Positions 35,471 through 44,018 of a stretch of DNA of 49,407 nucleotides are shown in pieces. The notes under the pieces were generated by a model, which worked only from the letters and a program-made list of their open reading frames with translations, had not been told where the DNA came from and searched no databases. A program made the translations under genes and the position numbers. Positions within the stretch are counted from its first letter, which is position 1; every line of letters begins with the position of its first letter. Origin of the DNA: Caulobacter sp. 32-67-35 (GTDB lineage: Bacteria > Pseudomonadota > Alphaproteobacteria > Caulobacterales > Caulobacteraceae); contig NCEV01000016.1 in the NCBI GenBank assembly GCA_002280875.1, forward strand, positions 1-49,407, read 5' to 3'.

Positions 35471-36169
35471 TCACACCAGCCGCGCCTGTAGCCACAGGAT
35501 CGCCGGGTAAACCGACAGCCAGGTCCAGAAAAAGCGGTTCAGGCCAAACAGGCAGGCATTGGCCAGGTGGAACGTCCCGGCCACGATCAGTCCGACGATC
35601 AGGCTCTCGCGCGACAGCAGGGTCAGCGGAAAGGCCAGCTCGAACAGCATGACCGCCCAGGACAGGGCCAGTAACAGGCGCGGTCGATCGGCCAGGCGGC
35701 GCAGGTCCTCGCTGACGGGATAGGCCGAGAACCGGAACACATCGGCCAGGGCCCGCCCGCTGCGCCAGTCGGGGTTCACAATCTTCACCCCACCGGAAAT
35801 AAAGTAGGACAACATCAGTTGCAGGCCCAGATAGCCCAAGGCCAACTCGGCCAAGGCCGGTGTGGGCGCCAGGCGCGACAGGGTCAGACACCACAGGGCC
35901 AGCAGGCCCATCCTGTCGCTTCCGCCATTATAAGGGCCCTGGAAGCGCCTGAGGATCAGCAGCGACAGCCCGGCCAGACCCACCAGGCCGATCAGGCCGA
36001 CCCACGGCCAGGTGAAGGCCGCGCCCAACAGCACGAGGCCGCACAGCGCCATTCGCGCAACAAACAGCGTCCGCTCGGGGCGGCTGCCACGGAGATGCTC
36101 CAGGCTCTGCTGGAGGAGGGCCAGGGCCAGCAGGGCCTCGGTCAGCCGGGCGGCGCTCTCCAGGCTCAT
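35471..36169 (-). CDS. HTTM-like membrane protein
   Basis: This 232-residue protein starts at ATG 36169, whose first bases overlap the stop of the upstream gene (ATGA, four bases). It has about six helices. LMLSYFISGGVKIVNPDWRS, then LRRLADRPRLLLALSWAVMLFELAFP and FWTWLSVYPAILWLQARLV, resembles the HTTM (vitamin K-dependent carboxylase-like transmembrane) group of bacteria. Many such proteins are paired with small soluble partners, as here. No enzymatic residue set can be recognised, so the function is open. Confidence 0.7.
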   Translation of the reverse strand: MSLESAARLTEALLALALLQQSLEHLRGSRPERTLFVARMALCGLVLLGAAFTWPWVGLIGLVGLAGLSLLILRRFQGPYNGGSDRMGLLALWCLTLSRLAPTPALAELALGYLGLQLMLSYFISGGVKIVNPDWRSGRALADVFRFSAYPVSEDLRRLADRPRLLLALSWAVMLFELAFPLTLLSRESLIVGLIVAGTFHLANACLFGLNRFFWTWLSVYPAILWLQARLV

Positions 36170-36606
36170 CGCACGGTGATGTCCGCCAGCCGGCGCGGGG
36201 CCGACTGGAACAGCACCTCGCGCTGGATCGCCTCGTCCTCGCGACTGACGAAGACCAGCCGGAAACTGAGCCAGGAGGCCGCATCCGCGCCGTCCGGCGC
36301 ACCCCGGAGTTCTGCGGCCAGACGCGAGAAGATCTCGTCCTGACTGTGGTCGGTCGGCGTATTGACCAGCCGCTCGGCGCAGCTGACCAGGAAAAGGGTC
36401 TCGTTCCAGCGCGGATTCCACAGCAGCCGGCCCAGCATGGCCCAGGCCGGTACGCGCTCGGGCCTGGGCCGAAACTCCCGCCAGCCGTCCTTCGGGGGCT
36501 TCGACGAGGGGGGCAGGGCGTATTCGATGCGCGGCGAAGGCGCGATCACGTCAAAGAAGTTCCAGGACGGGATCAGCGCCGGCAGCAGCAGAGTGAGGGG
36601 CTTCAA
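36166..36606 (-). CDS. Small protein coupled to the HTTM membrane gene
   Basis: The 146-residue protein starts at TTG 36606 with GGAGG six bases upstream; an ORF extension to 36735 has no ribosome site. Early residues LTLLLPALIPSWNFFDVIAP are hydrophobic, so it may be anchored or exported, and SPRIEYALPPSSKPP follows. The rest (about 55-146) is rich in Arg and Trp and may fold outside the membrane. It is coupled by overlap to the HTTM gene and is likely its partner. I do not recognise a named family. Confidence 0.7.
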   Translation of the reverse strand: MKPLTLLLPALIPSWNFFDVIAPSPRIEYALPPSSKPPKDGWREFRPRPERVPAWAMLGRLLWNPRWNETLFLVSCAERLVNTPTDHSQDEIFSRLAAELRGAPDGADAASWLSFRLVFVSREDEAIQREVLFQSAPRRLADITVR

Positions 36607-36718
36607 CGGGATCCTCCCCGGCTGGAGCGCGCGAATCGAACAGCGCCCGCGATCATCTCCGCCCATGGCAGGGGTCCGCAAGCACCCGAGCGCCAGCGCA
36701 GGAGGGCAACTTGTTGTT

Positions 36719-36736
36719 TTTGACTCTTTCGTCAAA
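36719..36736. promoter_or_regulatory. Inverted repeat TTTGAC-N6-GTCAAA, copy A
   Basis: TTTGAC (36719-36724) and GTCAAA (36731-36736) are perfect inverted repeats around a six-base spacer. Within a 24-base frame (36717-36740) it matches copy B at every position outside the spacer. It overlaps a GACTC (GANTC) methylation-type site at 36722-36726. Confidence 0.7.
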
Positions 36737-36978
36737 TATTGAAGCTGGAGCCCAGATACACCAAACCCGCCGCGGGGGATAATCGCGACGGGCTGGCTAT
36801 TTCTCGATCATTCGATCTAGGCGGGCGTTTCCTCCCCGAAACGCCGAAGGAAGGGAGCTCTCTGATGGGCTCTGTTCTTCCTTGCAAGCGTTAGAAACGT
36901 CATAATTGAGGCGGTGTCAACGCACCAAAACCCGTTTCTGTAACGGTTTGAGCGATTTTTTGACGAAACCGACGTAGT

Positions 36979-36996
36979 TTGGACGCGGCGGTCAAA
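36979..36996. promoter_or_regulatory. Inverted repeat, imperfect copy C of the TTTGAC-N6-GTCAAA site
   Basis: TTGGAC (36979-36984) and GTCAAA (36991-36996), six bases apart, differ from the consensus at one position of the left half. It does not contain GANTC. It lies 43 bases from copy B, measured between matching ends. Confidence 0.5.
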
Positions 36997-37021
36997 CTTA
37001 TCACCGTTCTCTTTGATTATT

Positions 37022-37039
37022 TTTGACGATAGAGTCAAA
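37022..37039. promoter_or_regulatory. Inverted repeat TTTGAC-N6-GTCAAA, copy B, across the hisG stop
   Basis: TTTGAC (37022-37027) and GTCAAA (37034-37039) around GATAGA. The hisG stop codon (37035-37037) lies inside the right half. It overlaps GAGTC, a GANTC site, at 37032-37036. Its 24-base frame 37020-37043 matches copy A outside the spacer, 303 bases away. Confidence 0.7.
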
Positions 37040-37997
37040 TATTACCTTTGAGGCGGTGCTCAAGGGTGTCCAGTACCCTGGAGCGCGACTCGAAGACGTA
37101 GTCGGGACGCGAAACAGTGACCGGCTCCACCCCCGCCCCGGCCAAGGCCGCGGCGGCGTCGAACAGATCCGAGGTCGCCAGCAGGGCGCCATTGGCCCGG
37201 CGCGAGCCGCCCTTGGCGACAAAGCTGGCGACAGCGGCCTGGGCCGTATCGTCCTGTTCGGCGGGCCAGACCAGGGTCGCCAGCCTGGCCGCCCGCCCCT
37301 TGGCCTCGACCACCGACAGCATCCGCCGCAGGGCGTTCAACTGCTCGGGCGACCAGTCGGCGATCAGCGAGGCGGTCAGCTGGGCCTGGCTCTTCAGGAT
37401 CACGCCGTCGGTCAGGATCTTCAGGCCGTTGGCCGCCAGGGTGGCGCCGGTGGTGGTGATGTCGACCACCAGTTCCGCCGCCCCGGCCGCCGGAGCGCCC
37501 TCGGTGGCGCCGCTGCTCTCGACGATGCGGTAGTCGGCCACGCCGTGACGAGCGAAGAAGGCCCGGGTCTGGGTCACATATTTGGTCGCCACCCGCAGCC
37601 GGCGGCCGGTGCGGGCCAGATGGGCGTGCCCGACCTCGTCGATATCGGCCATGGTGTCGACGTCCAGCCAGCTCTTGGGCGCCGTGACCACCAGATCCGC
37701 CCGGCCAAAACCCAGGGCGCGCAGCAGCATCACCCGGCTGTCCATGTCGTCGCCACGTTCGCGCAGCAGGTCCTCGCCGGTGACGCCCAGGTGCAGCTCG
37801 CCGGCGTCGAGGCCGGCGGCGATGTCGCCGGCCGACAGCAGGCGCACCGAGACGCCGGGCAGGCCCGAAAGTTCAGCGCTATAGCCGCGTGAGCCGCCGG
37901 TCATTTCCAGCTTGAAGCCGCATTCGGCCAGCCAGGCCTCGACCTGCTCTTTCAGGCGGCCCTTGGAGGGGATGGCGAAGATCATGGGCGCGCTCAT
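37035..37997 (-). CDS. hisG: ATP phosphoribosyltransferase, catalytic subunit
   Basis: The 320-residue protein makes phosphoribosyl-ATP, the first step of histidine synthesis. It starts with IFAIPSKGRLKEQVEAWL and carries LHLGVTGEDLLRERG. The phosphate-binding region is seen as ELVVDITTTGATLAANGLKI. It resembles the HisG type that works with the HisZ regulatory subunit, which is encoded right upstream with a four-base overlap. The C terminus ends inside copy B of the inverted repeat. The gene is the third of a hisS-hisZ-hisG operon on the minus strand. Confidence 0.93.
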   Translation of the reverse strand: MSAPMIFAIPSKGRLKEQVEAWLAECGFKLEMTGGSRGYSAELSGLPGVSVRLLSAGDIAAGLDAGELHLGVTGEDLLRERGDDMDSRVMLLRALGFGRADLVVTAPKSWLDVDTMADIDEVGHAHLARTGRRLRVATKYVTQTRAFFARHGVADYRIVESSGATEGAPAAGAAELVVDITTTGATLAANGLKILTDGVILKSQAQLTASLIADWSPEQLNALRRMLSVVEAKGRAARLATLVWPAEQDDTAQAAVASFVAKGGSRRANGALLATSDLFDAAAALAGAGVEPVTVSRPDYVFESRSRVLDTLEHRLKGNI

Positions 37998-39121
37998 TCG
38001 CCGCCTCCCGCATAGGCTCGCGCCGGACGGACCATGCAGCCCACCGCGCCTGTCTTTCGTTCAGCCCCCAACCGGGCCGGCAGCCCGTCATAGCGACCGC
38101 CGGCCGCCACGGGCCGCTCGTCGCCGAGGGCGGCGCTGCGCACTTCAAAGAGATAGCCGTCGTAATAGCCAAACGCCCGGCCAAACGAGGCGGTCAGCAC
38201 CATGCGATCCTCGGGCGCGCCGCGCTGGGCCATGCCGGAAAGGCGCGAGCGCCAGCCGTCCAGGGCCGCGTCCAGGGCCGCGCGCTGCGGGCCGGCGAGA
38301 GCCGAGATGGCGTCCAGCGCCGCGCCCGGACGGTCGCTGACCGCCAGGAAGGCGCGGACCTTGTCGGCCTGTTCGACGGACAAACGACCAGCCTTGGCGG
38401 CTTCGGCGCGTTCGACCAGGCGGTGGGCGATCTCGGCGGGACGGCGACCACCGACCGGCTCGATGCCGGCCAGGGACCACAGCTCCTGCAGCACCGCCGA
38501 AGCCTCGCCCTCGGGCAGGCCGGCCAGCAGCGCGGCGATGCGGCTCTGCTCGGCGCTGGCCTCGACACCGCCGTCCAGCTCGATCTTCAGCTGGCGCGGC
38601 CGGGTGAAGGCGCGCTTCAGGCGCACGGCCAAAGGCGGCGCCAGGCCCAGCGTATCCACGAACGCCCCGAACAGCCCCACATCGCCCAGCACCAGAGAAA
38701 GGTCCGAGCGGCCGCCGGCGGCTGACGAGGTCCAGGCCAAAGCGGCGATCTCGGCGTCGGCGGCGACGGGGTCGCCGGCCTCGAAGGCCTCGACGCCGAT
38801 CTGCAGGAACTCTTCGGCCCGGTCGCTGCCGCGCGGCGCCACCCGGAAGGCCTTGCCGTCATAGAGATAGCGCCCCGAAGCCGCCCCCGCCTCCAGGTGC
38901 GCGCGGGCGATGGCCACGGTGAAATCGGGCCGCAGGCACGCCTCCTCCCCCCCGTCGCCGGACACCACGAACAATCGCGACCGCATGGCCTCGCCGGCCA
39001 GGTCCAGCAGCAGGCCAAGCGGCTGCAGAACCGGCGCGTCGGTCAGCACGGCGCCGGCCGCCAGCAGCGGGGCGCGGATAGCGTCCAGCGCGTCGGCCGG
39101 AATGGAACGCTCGAGCCTCAT
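37994..39121 (-). CDS. hisZ: ATP phosphoribosyltransferase regulatory subunit (HisS-like)
   Basis: The 375-residue protein starts at ATG 39121 (MRLERSIPADALDAI); a longer ORF to 39265 reaches into hisS and is rejected. It is a catalytically dead paralogue of histidyl-tRNA synthetase class II core. DKVRAFLAVSDRPG and the motif-3-like AAGGRYDGLPARLGAERKTGAVG are recognisable. It binds histidine and controls HisG in the hetero-octamer. It sits four bases after hisS and overlaps hisG by four. Its place directly between hisS and hisG fits a common origin and a common regulation. Confidence 0.93.
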   Translation of the reverse strand: MRLERSIPADALDAIRAPLLAAGAVLTDAPVLQPLGLLLDLAGEAMRSRLFVVSGDGGEEACLRPDFTVAIARAHLEAGAASGRYLYDGKAFRVAPRGSDRAEEFLQIGVEAFEAGDPVAADAEIAALAWTSSAAGGRSDLSLVLGDVGLFGAFVDTLGLAPPLAVRLKRAFTRPRQLKIELDGGVEASAEQSRIAALLAGLPEGEASAVLQELWSLAGIEPVGGRRPAEIAHRLVERAEAAKAGRLSVEQADKVRAFLAVSDRPGAALDAISALAGPQRAALDAALDGWRSRLSGMAQRGAPEDRMVLTASFGRAFGYYDGYLFEVRSAALGDERPVAAGGRYDGLPARLGAERKTGAVGCMVRPARAYAGGGE

Positions 39122-39125
39122 GCCC

Positions 39126-40616
39126 TTAACCCTCAACGCTACCAGAGATGATCTTGCGGACAGCGGACACCAGCTCGCCGCGCGGGATCGTCTGCTGGCC
39201 GGGACGCTCGGCCTTCCAGGCGGCGTTGTCGGCCACGCCCGAGGCCAGCTCGCGACCCAGGTCAAGGTCCTTGATCGTCACCGTGCCGGCCGCGATCTCG
39301 TCGCCGCCCAGCATGATGGCGGCCGGTGCCATCCGGCGATCAGCATATTTCATCTGTGGCCGCATTCCCGAGGTTCCGAGATAGACCTCGGCCGGAATGC
39401 CTGCATTGCGCAGGTCGGCGGCCACCGAGAAGTACTCGCCCATATGGGCCTGATCGAAATTGATGATCACCACCGGACCGCGCGCCGTCCCGCCAGGCTC
39501 TCGCCCCGCCGCCCGCAGGGCCGAGGCCAGACGCGAGACGCCGAACGAGAAGCCGGTGGCCGGCACCGGCTGGCCGGTGAACCGCGCGATCAGGTCGTCA
39601 TAGCGCCCGCCGCCGCCGATCGAGCCGAACGAGACCTTGGCGCCCTTCTCGTCGGTGGTGGACAGCAGCAGCTCGGCCTCGAACACCGCGCCCGTATAGT
39701 ACTCCAGCCCGCGCACGATCGACGGCTCGAACATCGCCTGGTCGTCGGCGACACCCAGGCTCTTCAGGGCCGCGTCGATCAGGGCCAGCTCATTGAGCCC
39801 TTCGTCGCCCTCGGCCGAACCGCCGATGACATTGGCGATCTTGCTCAAGGTCTCCGATCGTCCGCCGGAACCGGCCTGGACGAAGTCGACCACCGCGTCG
39901 ATGGCCTTGCCCACCAGGCCCGCGCCCTTGGTGAAGGCGCCGCTCTCGTCCAGCCGGCCCTCGCCCAGCAGCAGGCGCACGCCCTCGACGCCCAGGCGGT
40001 CCAGCTTGTCGACGGCGCGCAGCACGGCCAGCTTCTGGCCGCCGGTCTCGACCCCGGCCGAGGTCAGAAGGCCGTTCAGCAGCTTGCGATTATTGATCCG
40101 CAGCACGGCCGAGCCGCGCGGCAGGCCGGCGGCTTCCAGACCCGCTACGGCCATGGCGATGATCTCGGCGTCGGCCTCGGGCCGGGCCGAGCCGACGGTG
40201 TCGGCGTCGCACTGGATGAATTCGCGGAAACGGCCGGGGCCGGGCTTCTCGTTGCGCCACACAGGGCCATAAGCATAGCGGCGGAACGGCTTGGGCAGGG
40301 TCTCCCAGTTCTGGGCCGCAAACCGGGCCAGGGGCGCGGTCAAATCGTAGCGCAACGCCATCCACTGATCATCGTCGTCCTGCAGGGCGAAGACGCCCTC
40401 GTTGGGACGGTCGCTGTCGGGCAGGAACTTGCCCAGCGCGTCGGCATATTCGAAGGCCCCGGTGTCCAGCGCCTCGAAGCCGTGCCGCTCATAGACCTTC
40501 GACACCGCCTCCAGGATGGCGCGCTCGGCCCGCAGGTTGCGGGCGCGCTTGTCGGCGAAGCCGCGCGGGGCGCGAGCTTCGGGGCGGAAGGCTTCGGTTT
40601 TGGTGTCGTCGGGCAT
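39126..40616 (-). CDS. hisS: Histidyl-tRNA synthetase
   Basis: The 496-residue class II synthetase charges tRNA-His. The start is ATG 40616 (MPDDTKTEAF) with AAGGA seven bases upstream. A longer frame to 40673 reaches into the attenuator and is rejected. Motif 2 is seen as YGPVWRNEKPGPGRFREFIQCDAD, and the His-specific stretches GLEYYTGAVFEAEL and GGGGRYDDLIARFTG are intact. A C-terminal anticodon domain follows (about 400-490). It is the first gene of the operon after a His-codon-rich leader, so charged tRNA-His level probably feeds back on its own synthesis and on HisZ-HisG. Confidence 0.95.
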   Translation of the reverse strand: MPDDTKTEAFRPEARAPRGFADKRARNLRAERAILEAVSKVYERHGFEALDTGAFEYADALGKFLPDSDRPNEGVFALQDDDDQWMALRYDLTAPLARFAAQNWETLPKPFRRYAYGPVWRNEKPGPGRFREFIQCDADTVGSARPEADAEIIAMAVAGLEAAGLPRGSAVLRINNRKLLNGLLTSAGVETGGQKLAVLRAVDKLDRLGVEGVRLLLGEGRLDESGAFTKGAGLVGKAIDAVVDFVQAGSGGRSETLSKIANVIGGSAEGDEGLNELALIDAALKSLGVADDQAMFEPSIVRGLEYYTGAVFEAELLLSTTDEKGAKVSFGSIGGGGRYDDLIARFTGQPVPATGFSFGVSRLASALRAAGREPGGTARGPVVIINFDQAHMGEYFSVAADLRNAGIPAEVYLGTSGMRPQMKYADRRMAPAAIMLGGDEIAAGTVTIKDLDLGRELASGVADNAAWKAERPGQQTIPRGELVSAVRKIISGSVEG

Positions 40617-40660
40617 CGTCGGTCCTTGGATACTCAAAGGCTTCGACGGATGGCGCTTGC

Positions 40661-40705
40661 AGCAAAGCCCCATCCGCTAGGCGGGGCTCGGGCAGGGGGC
40701 TTGCT
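40661..40705 (-). promoter_or_regulatory. Attenuator hairpins between the his leader peptide and hisS
   Basis: Two alternative stems share one arm. A: AGCAAAGCCCC (40661-40671) with GGGGCTTGCT (40696-40705), ten pairs with one bulged A. B: AGCCCC (40666-40671) with GGGGCT (40683-40688), helped by CGC/GCG inside. They cannot form together because both use 40666-40671. The far arm of stem A ends one base from the leader stop at 40707, so a ribosome at the stop would block A and favour B. Neither is followed by a clean T-run, so whether the control is transcriptional or translational is open. Confidence 0.65.
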
Positions 40706-40706
40706 G

Positions 40707-40787
40707 TTAAAGCGAGCGGACCCGGCCGATCCCGCGAGGCGAGGTCGGATGGTGGTGGCGGCCGTGATGGTGCGGCGTGCGGATCAT
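40707..40787 (-). CDS. hisL: Histidine leader peptide of the hisS-hisZ-hisG operon
   Basis: A 26-codon minus-strand ORF runs from ATG 40787 to TAA 40707. It begins MIRTP, then HHHGRHHH (residues 6-13), then a PTSPRG tail and ends RSL. Six of eight successive codons are His (CAC or CAT), as in the his operon leader of enteric bacteria with seven. It lies between a TATAGC element and hisS, and the attenuator hairpins follow its stop. Six His in eight codons is not expected by chance. It is too short for standard gene calling. No clear Shine-Dalgarno is seen, and the TATAGC spacing would allow a leaderless start. The name is by analogy with enteric hisL. Confidence 0.85.
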   Translation of the reverse strand: MIRTPHHHGRHHHPTSPRGIGRVRSL

Positions 40788-40795
40788 CGGCGCGG

Positions 40796-40803
40796 GCTAT
40801 AGC
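40796..40803 (-). promoter_or_regulatory. Possible -10 element for the his leader RNA
   Basis: GCTATAGC, a palindrome, resembles the Caulobacter housekeeping -10 (GCTANAWC) with one mismatch. Transcription starting 7-8 bases downstream on the minus strand would begin at or next to the leader ATG at 40787. The -35 is unclear (a TTCCCC 17 bases upstream is weak). Confidence 0.4.
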
Positions 40804-40960
40804 GCAGCGGGCGGCGGGGGGGAAGGGGGCGTACGGAGCCTTGGTCTGGCCAACCACGCGCACCCGCCTGTGAGGGCCCGCGCCCTCCTGCGGCGATATG
40901 GCCCAGCCAGGCTTGGCCGTATCGCCGAAACGTTAACCTTGTCGTGGCATAGCTCGTCTC

Positions 40961-41341
40961 ATGCGAGCAACCGCCCGACAAACCGCCTCCTTCGCCGACC
41001 AGCGCGCCTATGCGCGGCGGCCGACGTCCCGGAAGGTCTATCTGGTCAGCGGACGCGATACGTTACGCTGCGCCCTGATCGATCTGGCCGAGGGCGGGGC
41101 GCGTATCCGGCTGATGGGGACGGCCCTGCCCGAAGGCGATCTCTATCTGGTCGACACCCGCGTGCGGCGCATCCACCTGGCCCGCTCGGTGTGGCAGTCG
41201 GAGCGGGAAGCCGGCCTGCAGTTTGTCGAGAGCGACACCCTGGATCGTCCCGGCGGCGGCGTCGAAGGCGCTGCCGAAGCCGCCCTGTTGTTTGCTAGGC
41301 GTCGGGCCCGCGAGGCGGCCGCTCTGGAAGCCGACCTGTAG
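40961..41341 (+). CDS. PilZ-domain protein, likely c-di-GMP responsive
   Basis: The 126-residue protein is a small PilZ domain. The RxxxR motif is RPTSR (residues 20-24). The second motif, usually D/NxSxxG, is DLAEGG (41-46), with Ala in place of the Ser, so c-di-GMP binding may be weakened or absent. A short helical tail rich in Ala/Arg/Glu follows. It ends in a 47-base antisense overlap with the 3' end of the amidohydrolase gene. Together with the MHYT-GGDEF-EAL protein this makes two possible c-di-GMP elements in the window, but 34 kb apart. Confidence 0.75.
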   Translation: MRATARQTASFADQRAYARRPTSRKVYLVSGRDTLRCALIDLAEGGARIRLMGTALPEGDLYLVDTRVRRIHLARSVWQSEREAGLQFVESDTLDRPGGGVEGAAEAALLFARRRAREAAALEADL

Positions 41342-42119
41342 TCTCCAGGGCCTCGACCAGTCGCGGCGCCAGCCAGGCCGCCATCTGGGCCTGCGCTTCG
41401 GCGTCGACCAGCAGATCCTGGCGCACTTCCAGTTCAAGATAGTCCAGCCCGCCCGCATCGGCGTGGAGCGGGATGGTATTGTCTGTTTCGTCCATGGCGT
41501 AGGGCGCGTTATCGCCGACGGCCTCTCCCAGATCCGCCCGCAGCCGCGTCAGCACCGCCGTCGAAAAGGGCGAGTCGTGACGATGCAGCACACCAAGACG
41601 CCAGGGCCGCTCGATCCCCTGCATCGAGGGTGTGAAGCTGTGAAGCGCGATCAGAATTGTCGGCCGGTCCGCTCTCTCATTCAGCGCCCTGGCGATGGCG
41701 TCCTGGTAGGGCGCGTAGATCTCGGCCATTCGGGCCGCTGCGGCTTGCGGCGAAAGGTCTCGATTGCCCGGGATCGACTCACCGTCGCTGACTGGCGGCA
41801 TGGCCCCATCAGCGCCTGGGCGGCGATTACAGTCGACGACCAGCCGCGAATAGACCTGCGCGATGAAGGTCGCGTCCAGCAGGCCTGAAAGCAGCGTTCC
41901 CAGGCCCGCTATGCCGATATCCCAGGCGATATGACGGTCCAATGCCGCATCGCCCAGGCCCAGGCGGTTCAGACGCCGGGGAATCTCCCGCCCCGCATGG
42001 TCCCCCAGAAGCAGAAATGGCGATGGGGCGCCCGGATTGAGCACAATGACCGGGTCCGGATCACCTGCGACAAGAAGGCGGCTCGACCCCGCGCCCGAAT
42101 CCCAGCCACTAGTGATCAA
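41295..42119 (-). CDS. N-formylglutamate amidohydrolase family protein
   Basis: This protein has 274 residues from a TTG at 42119; the nearest later start is a GTG at about codon 26. It has the family segments PFLLLGDHAGREIPRRLNRLGL, YSRLVVDCNRRPGADGAMPPV, LIALHSFTPSMQG and the C-terminal LEVRQDLL. The His and Asp/Glu of DHAGRE and LHSFTP are the likely metal ligands. The family hydrolyses N-formyl-glutamate in histidine breakdown or other N-acylated amino acids. No hut genes are present here, so the substrate is uncertain. It overlaps the PilZ gene by 47 bases at its 3' end and shares one base with the divergent transglutaminase start. Confidence 0.85.
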   Translation of the reverse strand: MITSGWDSGAGSSRLLVAGDPDPVIVLNPGAPSPFLLLGDHAGREIPRRLNRLGLGDAALDRHIAWDIGIAGLGTLLSGLLDATFIAQVYSRLVVDCNRRPGADGAMPPVSDGESIPGNRDLSPQAAAARMAEIYAPYQDAIARALNERADRPTILIALHSFTPSMQGIERPWRLGVLHRHDSPFSTAVLTRLRADLGEAVGDNAPYAMDETDNTIPLHADAGGLDYLELEVRQDLLVDAEAQAQMAAWLAPRLVEALETTGRLPERPPRGPDA

Positions 42120-43045
42120 TGCCTGTGCTCTCGGTTCGCCATCTGACGCGCTACCGGTATCGCAATCCCGTGGCGTTCGGCGATCATCGCATGATGTTGC
42201 GCCCGCGCGAAGGTTGCGATCAGCGACTGCTGTCGTCCAGTCTGCTGATCACGCCCAATCCCGTTCAACTGCGCTACGTTCAGGACGTCTTGGGCAACTG
42301 GGTCGGCGTCGCTCACTTCCAGGGCCGCTCCAGCGAACTGAGCTTTGAAAGCCAGTTCACCCTGGACCATACGCCCCTGCCGGCCTTTGGCGACGTGCCC
42401 GGCCATATCGACGTCTACGAGGCTGGCAGGCCTTTCGCCTATTCCAGCGAGGACTTGCCTGACCTGTTTCAGTCCATCGCGCCCCAGCATGACGATCCCG
42501 ACGGCGTCCTGACCCGCTGGGCGCTGGGCTTCGTCAAGCCTGCGGGCGAGACCAGCCTGCAGCACATGCTGGCCGAGATGACCCAGGCGATCTATGCCGA
42601 CTTCAGATACGGCAAGCGCTTCGAGAAGGGGGTCCAGACGCCCCTGACCACCCTGGAAAACCGGGGCGGCACCTGTCGCGACTTCGCGGTGCTGATGATC
42701 GAGGCCGTGCGGCGCCTGGGCCTCGCCGCCCAGTTCGTGTCGGGCTACATCCACAGCCCCTCGCGCAAACAGGTGGCGGTCGAGCGGACTGGAGGCGGCC
42801 ACACCCATGCCTGGTTGCGGGTCTATCTGCCCTCATGCGGCTGGGTGGAGTTTGATCCCACCAATGGCATCGTCGGCAACACCGACCTGATCCGCGTCGC
42901 CGTGGTCCGCGATCCGCGCCAGGCGCCACCCGTCCATGGCACCTGGGCAGGCTTTCCGACCGACTATCTGGGCATGGATGTCGAGGTCGACGTCACCAGC
43001 ATCGAAGATCATCTGGCGCCGTCCCTGGCCACGGCCTTCGGCTGA
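42119..43045 (+). CDS. Transglutaminase-like cysteine protein (Bact_transglu_N)
   Basis: The 308-residue cytoplasmic protein begins with the bacterial transglutaminase N-terminal domain (SVRHLTRYRYRNPVAFGDHR, about 1-90). The transglutaminase core follows, with catalytic Cys186 (GGTCRDFA), His230 (GHTHAWL) and Asp246 (FDPTNG). These suggest a functional protease or acyl-transferase fold. Substrates of the family are unknown; partner genes are often of the alpha-E/ATP-grasp type, none here. Its ATG shares its A with the TTG of the divergent amidohydrolase gene. A second transglutaminase gene follows after 94 bases. Confidence 0.9.
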   Translation: MPVLSVRHLTRYRYRNPVAFGDHRMMLRPREGCDQRLLSSSLLITPNPVQLRYVQDVLGNWVGVAHFQGRSSELSFESQFTLDHTPLPAFGDVPGHIDVYEAGRPFAYSSEDLPDLFQSIAPQHDDPDGVLTRWALGFVKPAGETSLQHMLAEMTQAIYADFRYGKRFEKGVQTPLTTLENRGGTCRDFAVLMIEAVRRLGLAAQFVSGYIHSPSRKQVAVERTGGGHTHAWLRVYLPSCGWVEFDPTNGIVGNTDLIRVAVVRDPRQAPPVHGTWAGFPTDYLGMDVEVDVTSIEDHLAPSLATAFG

Positions 43046-43139
43046 CGCATCTTTCGATCGCGTCGCGCGTTGGCGTTGAACTTCTACTTAAATCCCGGAT
43101 TCGCCACCCCTGGTGCGCCGGCTCCTGCGTGAGACGACG

Positions 43140-44018
43140 ATGCTGATCCGCTATGGCTACGAGATCACGGTCTACTGTCAGCAACCCACGGCGATGGTGA
43201 CGCTGCTGGGCCTGAGGGACGGACGCGAGGCCGACGTACGCATCCCCGAGTCGTTCTTCACGACACCCGAGGTCGCGACCTCGACCTATCGCGACATGTT
43301 CGGCAATCCTTGCCGCCGCCTGGTCGCCCCGGCAGGCCTGCTGACCCTCTGGAGCGACAGCGTCATGGAAGATAGCGGCGCGGTCGATCCCGCGGCGCCA
43401 GACGCCGAGCAACACGACGTCGCCGACCTGCCCGACGACTGTCTCGTCTATCTGATGGGCAGCCGCTATTGCGAGACGGACCGTCTCAGCCAGCTGGCTT
43501 GGGACAGGTTCGGCCCTATCCAGGGGGGCTGGGCGCGGGCCCAGGCGATCTGCGACTTCGTCCACAGCCACATCAGTTTTGACTACAAGACCGCCTGCTC
43601 GACACGCACGGCCTATGAGGTGCATGAGGGCCGCATCGGCGTATGTCGCGACTATGCCCATCTGGCTGTTGCGCTCTGTCGTTGCCTGAACATCCCGGCG
43701 CGCTATGTGAACGGTTATCTGGGCGACATCGGCGTGCCGCGCGTCGACCCGATGGACTTCAGCGCCTGGATGGAAGTTTATCTGGGCGGCAAATGGTGGG
43801 CCTTCGACCCGCGCAACAACATCCCACGTATCGGCCGCATCGTGGTGGCCCATGGCCGTGACGCCGCCGACGTGGCCATGCTGACCTCGTTCGGGCCGCA
43901 TCAGCTGAACGGCTTCCGGGTCTGGGCCTATGAAACCGAGGCTGGCGCCCTGCCGGGTTCAGTGATCGACACGACCGGAGCGGCCGGGCGTGAAGTCCGC
44001 GCCCGCTCGCCGCTGTAG
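43140..44018 (+). CDS. Second transglutaminase-like protein, catalytic His replaced
   Basis: The 292-residue protein starts at ATG 43140 (MLIRYGYEITVYCQQPT); a GTG at 43113 is less likely. The core has Cys169 (GVCRDYAHLA) and Asp223 (AFDPRNN), but the position of the catalytic His is Ser208 (DFSAWMEVYL), where its neighbour has THAWLRVY. I recall relatives that also carry DFSAWFE, so this may be a subfamily trait. It follows the first transglutaminase by 94 bases on the same strand. Its activity is doubtful; it could be a binding partner. Confidence 0.85.
   Translation: MLIRYGYEITVYCQQPTAMVTLLGLRDGREADVRIPESFFTTPEVATSTYRDMFGNPCRRLVAPAGLLTLWSDSVMEDSGAVDPAAPDAEQHDVADLPDDCLVYLMGSRYCETDRLSQLAWDRFGPIQGGWARAQAICDFVHSHISFDYKTACSTRTAYEVHEGRIGVCRDYAHLAVALCRCLNIPARYVNGYLGDIGVPRVDPMDFSAWMEVYLGGKWWAFDPRNNIPRIGRIVVAHGRDAADVAMLTSFGPHQLNGFRVWAYETEAGALPGSVIDTTGAAGREVRARSPL

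Follow-up and report, generated by a model that had tools for sequence, protein, structure and literature searches.

What does the short histidine-rich reading frame ahead of hisS do in Caulobacter, and does it control the genes behind it? The question arises in the window, the whole stretch of 49,407 nucleotides of Caulobacter sp. 32-67-35 DNA analysed here (contig NCEV01000016.1). An original prediction, made from the letters alone, had described a 26-codon minus-strand ORF with HHHGRHHH at residues 6-13 and had read it as a histidine leader with attenuation by alternative RNA folds. The ORF lies in the sequence exactly as described, with its ATG at 40787-40785 and a TAA stop at 40709-40707 on the minus strand (Table 1), and its peptide matched no family in NCBIfam. 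The predicted order of the genes on the strand of the leader, hisS-hisZ-hisG, is right by family matches, and the genes found downstream are, as proposed, those of the synthetase and HisZ-HisG rather than a full his operon. We place the hisZ start at the ATG where the NF008949 match begins, which is residue 49 of a longer ORF; hisZ and hisG overlap by four bases. A short way behind hisG lies a match to CrfA, a Caulobacter sRNA (Rfam RF01527, 36751-36885, minus strand, 152.6 bits). As is general for leader peptide attenuators, a run of cognate codons precedes genes of the same metabolism, and comparisons across related genomes give good support to control of hisS-hisZ-hisG by a His leader peptide through alternative RNA folds.

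Table 1. Coordinates of the leader, its RNA segments and the neighbouring features in the window; segment pairings are predicted.
Feature	Position	Strand	Evidence	Remarks
RF01528 (sRNA CC3513) match	40672..40840	+	96.8 bits, gathering score 40	opposite to leader
-10-like element TATAGC	40796..40801	-	sequence	ends 8 bases before leader ATG
Leader ORF	40707..40787	-	sequence and ORF list	26 codons plus stop; peptide MIRTPHHHGRHHHPTSPRGIGRVRSL
His codon region	40749..40772	-	sequence	codons 6-13 (HHHGRHHH); CAC and CAT mixed in relatives
Segment A, CCGACCUCGC	40739..40748	-	predicted fold	pairs with B if free of ribosome
Segment B	40720..40735	-	predicted folds; B:C against shuffles	pairs with A or C
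Segment C	40680..40694	-	C:D cells paired	3' of leader stop; pairs with B or D
Segment D, GCGGAUGGGGCUU	40665..40677	-	D:E cells paired and double change	pairs with C or E
Segment E, CAAGCGCCAUCCGUCG	40644..40659	-	pairing counts	pairs with D or F
Segment F, AAGGACCGACGAUG	40614..40627	-	E:F cells paired	AAGGA and hisS start codon
hisS, histidine--tRNA ligase	39126..40616	-	TIGR00442, 377.4 bits, cut-off 286.75	
hisZ, ATP phosphoribosyltransferase regulatory subunit	37994..39121	-	NF008949, 698 bits	
hisG, ATP phosphoribosyltransferase	37035..37997	-	TIGR00070, 164.8 bits, cut-off 75.75	

The leader is widely conserved before hisS. A similarity search with HisS in species genomes gave 312 loci, and the best 80 were taken, their titles mostly naming Caulobacter, Phenylobacterium or Caulobacteraceae/Caulobacterales assemblies. 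Two of them (L089 and L098), with only 15 and 22 bases upstream, are left out of the leader count; the other 78 have at least 199. A His-rich leader ORF precedes hisS in 71 of these 78 loci, which answers in the affirmative whether the His codons are kept in relatives, and the same filter gave no leader in seven (L058, L073, L084, L102, L103, L107 and L108). Among the best 80, 72 loci extend 2200 bases or more beyond hisS, and every one of them carries hisS-hisZ-hisG on the same strand, 65 with the leader and seven without; since the gene order is kept in those seven, the operon does not depend on the leader. A leader is also seen in 29 of 30 loci derived from RF01528, the window (L025) among them, and in the exception (L029) the script chose an unrelated ORF.

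For folding, 71 sequences were used (the window and 70 loci, with L061 removed for an insertion). Because leaders were picked by an ORF length of 22-27 codons and at least three His, their lengths of 22 codons (1 sequence), 24 (15), 25 (33) and 26 (22), like the range of His numbers, are partly a matter of choice. They contain 279 CAC and 155 CAT codons, start with ATG in 68 cases and GTG in three, and use all three stop codons. The 22-codon length and one of the GTG starts come from L101, where a longer ATG form is also present. The start ATG is doubtful in L094, L095, L106, L110 and perhaps L062, all of which are kept in the folding, shuffle and footprint sets. Gaps within the aligned leader ORF are three bases long.

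Searches with RNA models extend this distribution. RF01528 matches 52 of 199 genomes of the family at E ≤ 0.001, 37 of them above the cut-off, and model R1, built from 57 leaders, matches 92 of the 199, in 11 of 22 genera. Twelve weaker or second places of model R1 were opened and lie before hisS (L233, L234, L235, L237), before asd (L230, L231, L232) or before other genes (L226-L229, L236). Among the last, the leader-like elements of genus g7 precede genes for GNAT acetyltransferases (L226, L229) and for methyltransferases (L227, L228), and that of genus g9 (L236) precedes a cut-off gene without a Pfam match. In genus g3, a filter of at least four His found no His leader before hisS in any of eight genomes (L142-L145, L152, L176-L178). 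In another family of the order, hisS is also preceded by short ORFs with four to six adjacent His (L159, L162 and L163: MNTQQHHHHHS, MKTRLHHHHQQT and MNTKPHHHHHHA), with a tRNA-Gln gene between ORF and hisS in L159 and L162. Their layout differs, and we do not count them as the same leader.

Behind the leader stop, both stems of the original prediction are present in the window. In one, 40705-40696 (AGCAAGCCCC) pairs with 40671-40661 (GGGGCTTTGCT) around a one-base bulge; in the other, AGCCCC at 40688-40683 pairs with GGGGCT at 40671-40666. Since they share one arm, they are mutually exclusive. As to their conservation in relatives, the inner AGCCCC/GGGGCU helix is kept (95.0% of cells paired in 57 sequences), but the outer part of the other stem is confined to near relatives, and the longer stem is rejected as a conserved element, its arm GGGGCTTTGCT being found only in the window and L010 among 30 loci. 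Two helices absent from that prediction are CGGAUGG/CCAUCCG just downstream and one over the hisS start codon. The idea of a switch between competing helices survives, but with five helices in a chain (A:B, B:C, C:D, D:E and E:F) instead of two. We propose this chain from a reading of the alignment: A:B falls within the latter half of the ORF, B:C spans the stop codon and E:F covers the start of hisS. A search of the window's own genome for the C:D hairpin pattern gave three matches, the two others being unlike leaders by eye.

The helices were assessed in an alignment of 57 rows (A1), from which eight of 65 sequences (L062, L065, L076, L082, L094, L095, L101 and L110) had been removed by hand for doubtful start choice or near identity. 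D:E, CGGAUGG/CCAUCCG, has the best evidence among the predicted helices: 92.5% of its cells are paired, against 31.6-57.4% in slid versions, and one covarying pair is U-A in 39 of the 57 sequences and C-G in 15. C:D is paired in 95.0% of its outer and 90.4% of its inner cells. The two parts of E:F reach 100% and 85.7%, the first figure being partly trivial because the start codon side hardly varies; in E, opposite the U of AUG, G replaces A in 16 sequences and a G-U pair is kept. A:B is paired in 72.3% of cells in an imperfect alignment. Taken jointly, A:B, C:D and E:F show double changes at six pairs and in 16 cells, which is not above slid versions (4-10 pairs, 9-21 cells). That the ORF and stems arose by chance can practically be dismissed: short ORFs are common in GC-rich DNA (86 of at least 20 amino acids over 36000-44000), but neither a leader in 71 of 78 loci nor the covariation in D:E fits such an origin.

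Two further tests concern stability. Against dinucleotide shuffles, mean z values are -2.3 for B:C, -1.4 for C:D, -4.9 for D:E and -2.2 for E:F in 23 Caulobacter sequences, and -1.4, -2.2, -3.7 and -1.6 in 47 others (70 used, L083 removed), with a segment misplaced by the script in a few, such as L080. A:B is no better than shuffles. When each segment's own partner was compared with swapped partners in 37 sequences (chosen by similarity from 66 after removal of L094, L095, L106 and L110), the values are -2.9 for A:B, -3.7 for B:C, -7.4 for C:D, -6.0 for D:E and -2.6 for E:F. The test favours all five helices, but with its four control pairs spanning -2.0 to +4.35 it is poorly calibrated, and only C:D and D:E stand clear. 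These two share segment D, so mutually exclusive helices have been kept in evolution. The control at +4.35 is A:D, which should not interact; we had considered that CCAUCCG, found where the His codons end, imitates E and pairs with D, and this is rejected because A:D is weaker with its own partner than with swapped ones and because D becomes CGGACGG in Phenylobacterium-type loci where the leader stays CCATCCG.

The surroundings of segment F vary somewhat. In many Phenylobacterium-type loci, F lies over an ATG upstream of hisS and not over the hisS start itself. In L063, L099, L104 and similar loci, a second ATG after F either extends hisS at its N-terminus or opens a short ORF ending shortly before that gene, and TTGA...CTAAGC stretches between leader and hisS could, by eye, be a second promoter. 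L085 and L111 show an AUCCC/GGGAU pairing over the ribosome site in the predicted ribosome-free fold, and L072 has matching letters.

Which strand carries the folding RNA is a question of its own, since the RF01528 match makes the region an already known one, but with a model on the opposite strand from the leader. The founding paper of CC3513 is reportedly Landt 2008, which PMC4117421 cites, and the family is said to go back to an experimental screen. Within D:E, C:D and E:F, the minus strand shows 52 G-U against 10 A-C cells (29 against 8 without E:F); a G-U pair is an A-C mismatch on the other strand, and the counts thus suggest that the folding RNA is that of the minus strand. A:B (34 and 36), being poorly aligned, does not enter these totals. 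An independent sRNA or antisense RNA on the plus strand, as the family is filed, with the ORF secondary to it, would account for the strong RF01528 match (Table 1), but it would leave the ORF, the His codons and the frame kept on the minus strand, as well as the G-U excess, to be explained otherwise, and we consider it very unlikely. An additional plus-strand RNA is possible. The leader reading gives an Rfam 'sRNA' a testable function and suggests that the strand of RF01528 needs checking. Divergent from the leader, a PilZ-domain gene lies at 40961-41341 on the plus strand, about 120 bases beyond the end of the RF01528 match.

We think it fairly probable, from the conserved sequences and predicted folds, that the leader is a cis-acting His peptide switch on the minus strand that acts on the translation start of hisS. 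Its mRNA would begin at the leader ATG or within 1-2 bases of it. With ample charged tRNA-His, the ribosome would pass the His codons and leave, A:B, C:D and E:F would form, and E:F would hide the hisS start codon, leaving HisS, HisZ and HisG poorly made. When charged tRNA-His is short, the ribosome would wait on the second His group and cover A; B could then pair with C, leaving D to pair with E, which would uncover the start of hisS. If so, tRNA charging would be tied both to histidine use (HisS) and to the first step of synthesis (HisZ-HisG) in a model genus.

The upstream sequence is compatible with such a transcript. CTANA stands 14-17 bases before the leader start (counted to the start of the motif) in 59 of 71 loci, or 66 when weaker forms are counted, and a consensus promoter scan found no site. 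The positions of CTANA and of TATAGC in the window agree, plausibly, with a leaderless or nearly leaderless leader mRNA. Leaderless mRNAs are common in Caulobacter, with 375 cases given in the portion of PMC4117421 that deals with them.

Equilibrium fold predictions back the switch across species, and more modestly in the window itself. Over the 71 sequences, the mean predicted access of the start codon is 0.27 for the free RNA, 0.53 when the leader is masked from its start as far as the leading edge of a ribosome that sits at the last His codon, and 0.24 with a ribosome on the stop codon. Masking raises access in 52 sequences and not in the other 19; the rise averages 0.26, compared with 0.08 in shuffles, with none of the sets of 20 above 0.16, and a rise above 0.2 occurs in 37 sequences, while none shows a fall of that size. 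Masking the first 30 bases alone has no effect on predicted access. When only the ribosome footprint is applied, access in 48 non-Caulobacter-type sequences is highest with the A site at codons 9-12 (0.40-0.49 against 0.28 free). The 23 Caulobacter-type sequences reach 0.40-0.44 at these codons against 0.25 free, but also 0.41 at codon 3 and their highest mean, 0.50, at codon 4, and the model leaves this unexplained. In 36 less similar sequences (L101 removed), access is 0.30 free, 0.42 at the last three His codons, 0.31 at the first three and 0.29 further on; the last three exceed the positions further on in 26 of 36 (p = 0.0001), the other 10 showing no such rise, and the free RNA in 27 of 36. 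The window itself gives 0.26 free, 0.43 at the last three His codons, 0.32 at the first three and a mean of 0.17 further on, and reaches 0.35 with the large mask and at best 0.49 with the footprint.

The same sensor could instead act on transcription, with C:D as the terminator, as originally supposed, or with Rho ending transcription when hisS is untranslated, which requires no U-tract. C:D is a conserved GC-rich hairpin, and in five of 11 loci counted that have Thr-rich leaders of comparable layout ahead of thrS or asd, 5-7 of the eight bases after the matching hairpin are T. Several features nevertheless speak against this reading. A terminator scan of the minus strand found no terminator-like site, the eight bases after C:D hold a mean of only 2.4 T in 67 hisS leaders, and a terminating C:D would leave no need for E:F over the start. 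Together, these favour control of translation start over classic termination, and we regard transcription control as unlikely. What stands of the attenuation first proposed is the leader and its conserved alternative helices, but not the terminator; control is probably exerted at translation start.

The closest known design is the his operon attenuator of E. coli and Salmonella (Rfam RF00514), in which a His codon run is followed by alternative pairings in six segments and a stalled ribosome selects the active fold. The order of pairing in E. coli is the one proposed here, and its last hairpin ends transcription. The Caulobacter leader would share the His codon run, the six-segment chain and the choice of fold by a stalled ribosome; unlike the enterobacterial leader, it precedes hisS-hisZ-hisG and not a full his operon, lacks an intrinsic terminator with a U-tract, and would place its last hairpin on the start codon. 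RF00514 had no match at its gathering score in the window, nor at E ≤ 1 in 40400-41000, and the T-box model (presumably RF00230) had no Rfam match in either. Vitreschak and co-workers are said to have made a comparative study of proteobacterial attenuators. In B. subtilis rtpLP, of the anti-TRAP operon, a Trp leader peptide likewise acts through cognate codons on translation of the next gene; there the ribosome directly blocks or exposes the next ribosome site, with no helix chain, and here a helix chain would take that part.

Other leaders share single features with this one. In the actinobacterial ileS T-box, as set out in the sections of PMC1262725 on its mechanism, a hairpin that sequesters the Shine-Dalgarno sequence controls translation start of a synthetase gene according to tRNA charging, but the T-box senses tRNA directly, with no leader peptide. 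For Bacillus, parts of PMC2965389 describe leader peptides that carry a run of His codons and precede hisZ or a paralogue of hisS (hisS*); these are from Firmicutes and were found through premature terminators, and the same parts see no similarity to proteobacterial leaders. In C. crescentus, the leader CDS entries of PMC4117421 include short translated ORFs before the synthetase genes trpS and ileS, in the same genus but for other amino acids and with no fold model in those entries. In the window's own genome, short ORFs seen by eye before trpS and ileS (L244, MALIGPFAPRWRGSR, and L245, MTFVRKTPRIIRPA) contain one Trp and two Ile codons, are their likely counterparts, and are perhaps those known from C. 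crescentus ribosome profiling. Among the open-licence matches listed, no paper describes a leader before hisS in Caulobacter.

The rnTrpL/peTrpL system of Sinorhizobium, as presented in excerpts of PMC10117765, is also a leaderless attenuator ORF in an alphaproteobacterium; it differs in sensing Trp ahead of trpE and in the trans roles of its sRNA. Since a related member of the class has a leaderless RNA and a peptide, both from an attenuator, that act in trans, the His peptide or a short leader RNA might also act in trans, and a peptide tail nearly invariant within Caulobacter would suit this. The tail varies between clades, however, while the RNA segments are kept, and a trans role would add to cis control, not replace it; as the explanation of the locus, we hold it to be highly improbable.

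The preferred reading, a cis-acting switch on translation start, may apply beyond histidine. A search of 385 genomes of the class with the leader model gave matches in 15 at E ≤ 0.01, including the window's own. Ten of the 14 others are long matches, seven of them before thrS (L212, L213, L215, L216, L218, L219 and L224; TIGR00418 above cut-off) and two before asd (L214 and L217; NF011456 above cut-off), the tenth being L220; the four short ones (L221, L222, L223 and L225) look like chance by eye, some lying in His-rich coding sequence. The ORFs at the long thrS and asd matches are Thr-rich or Thr/Lys-rich leaders, and the family search with model R1 adds three asd leaders (L230, L231 and L232). 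Their C, D, E and F have a layout similar to that of the hisS leader, and none of the ten thrS/asd loci compared with Rfam (of 12, all but L218 and L231) matched a family. When 11 of these loci were folded (all but L218), predicted access of the ribosome site rises clearly at or near the Thr codons in L212, L214, L215 and L230, slightly in L231, and little or not at all in six.

We tentatively suggest, as a possibility somewhat short of probable, that Alphaproteobacteria share a modular RNA layout of leader ORF, segments A-F and a final hairpin over the ribosome site, whose sensor codons differ from gene to gene: His codons ahead of hisS in Caulobacteraceae and, in other members of the class, Thr codons ahead of thrS and Thr/Lys codons ahead of asd. 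Such a layout could act on translation start, would be absent from Rfam in its right form and would explain CC3513. If the thrS and asd leaders do share it, one design would serve several amino acids across the class. For thrS of the window's own genome, the stretch examined holds no Thr leader, and the ORF directly upstream reads by eye like what we take to be yidD. In S. meliloti, SEP5, which contains Thr and Lys codons and precedes a gene for an 'aspartate dehydrogenase', is given as a possible leader peptide in the part of PMC10117765 that concerns it.
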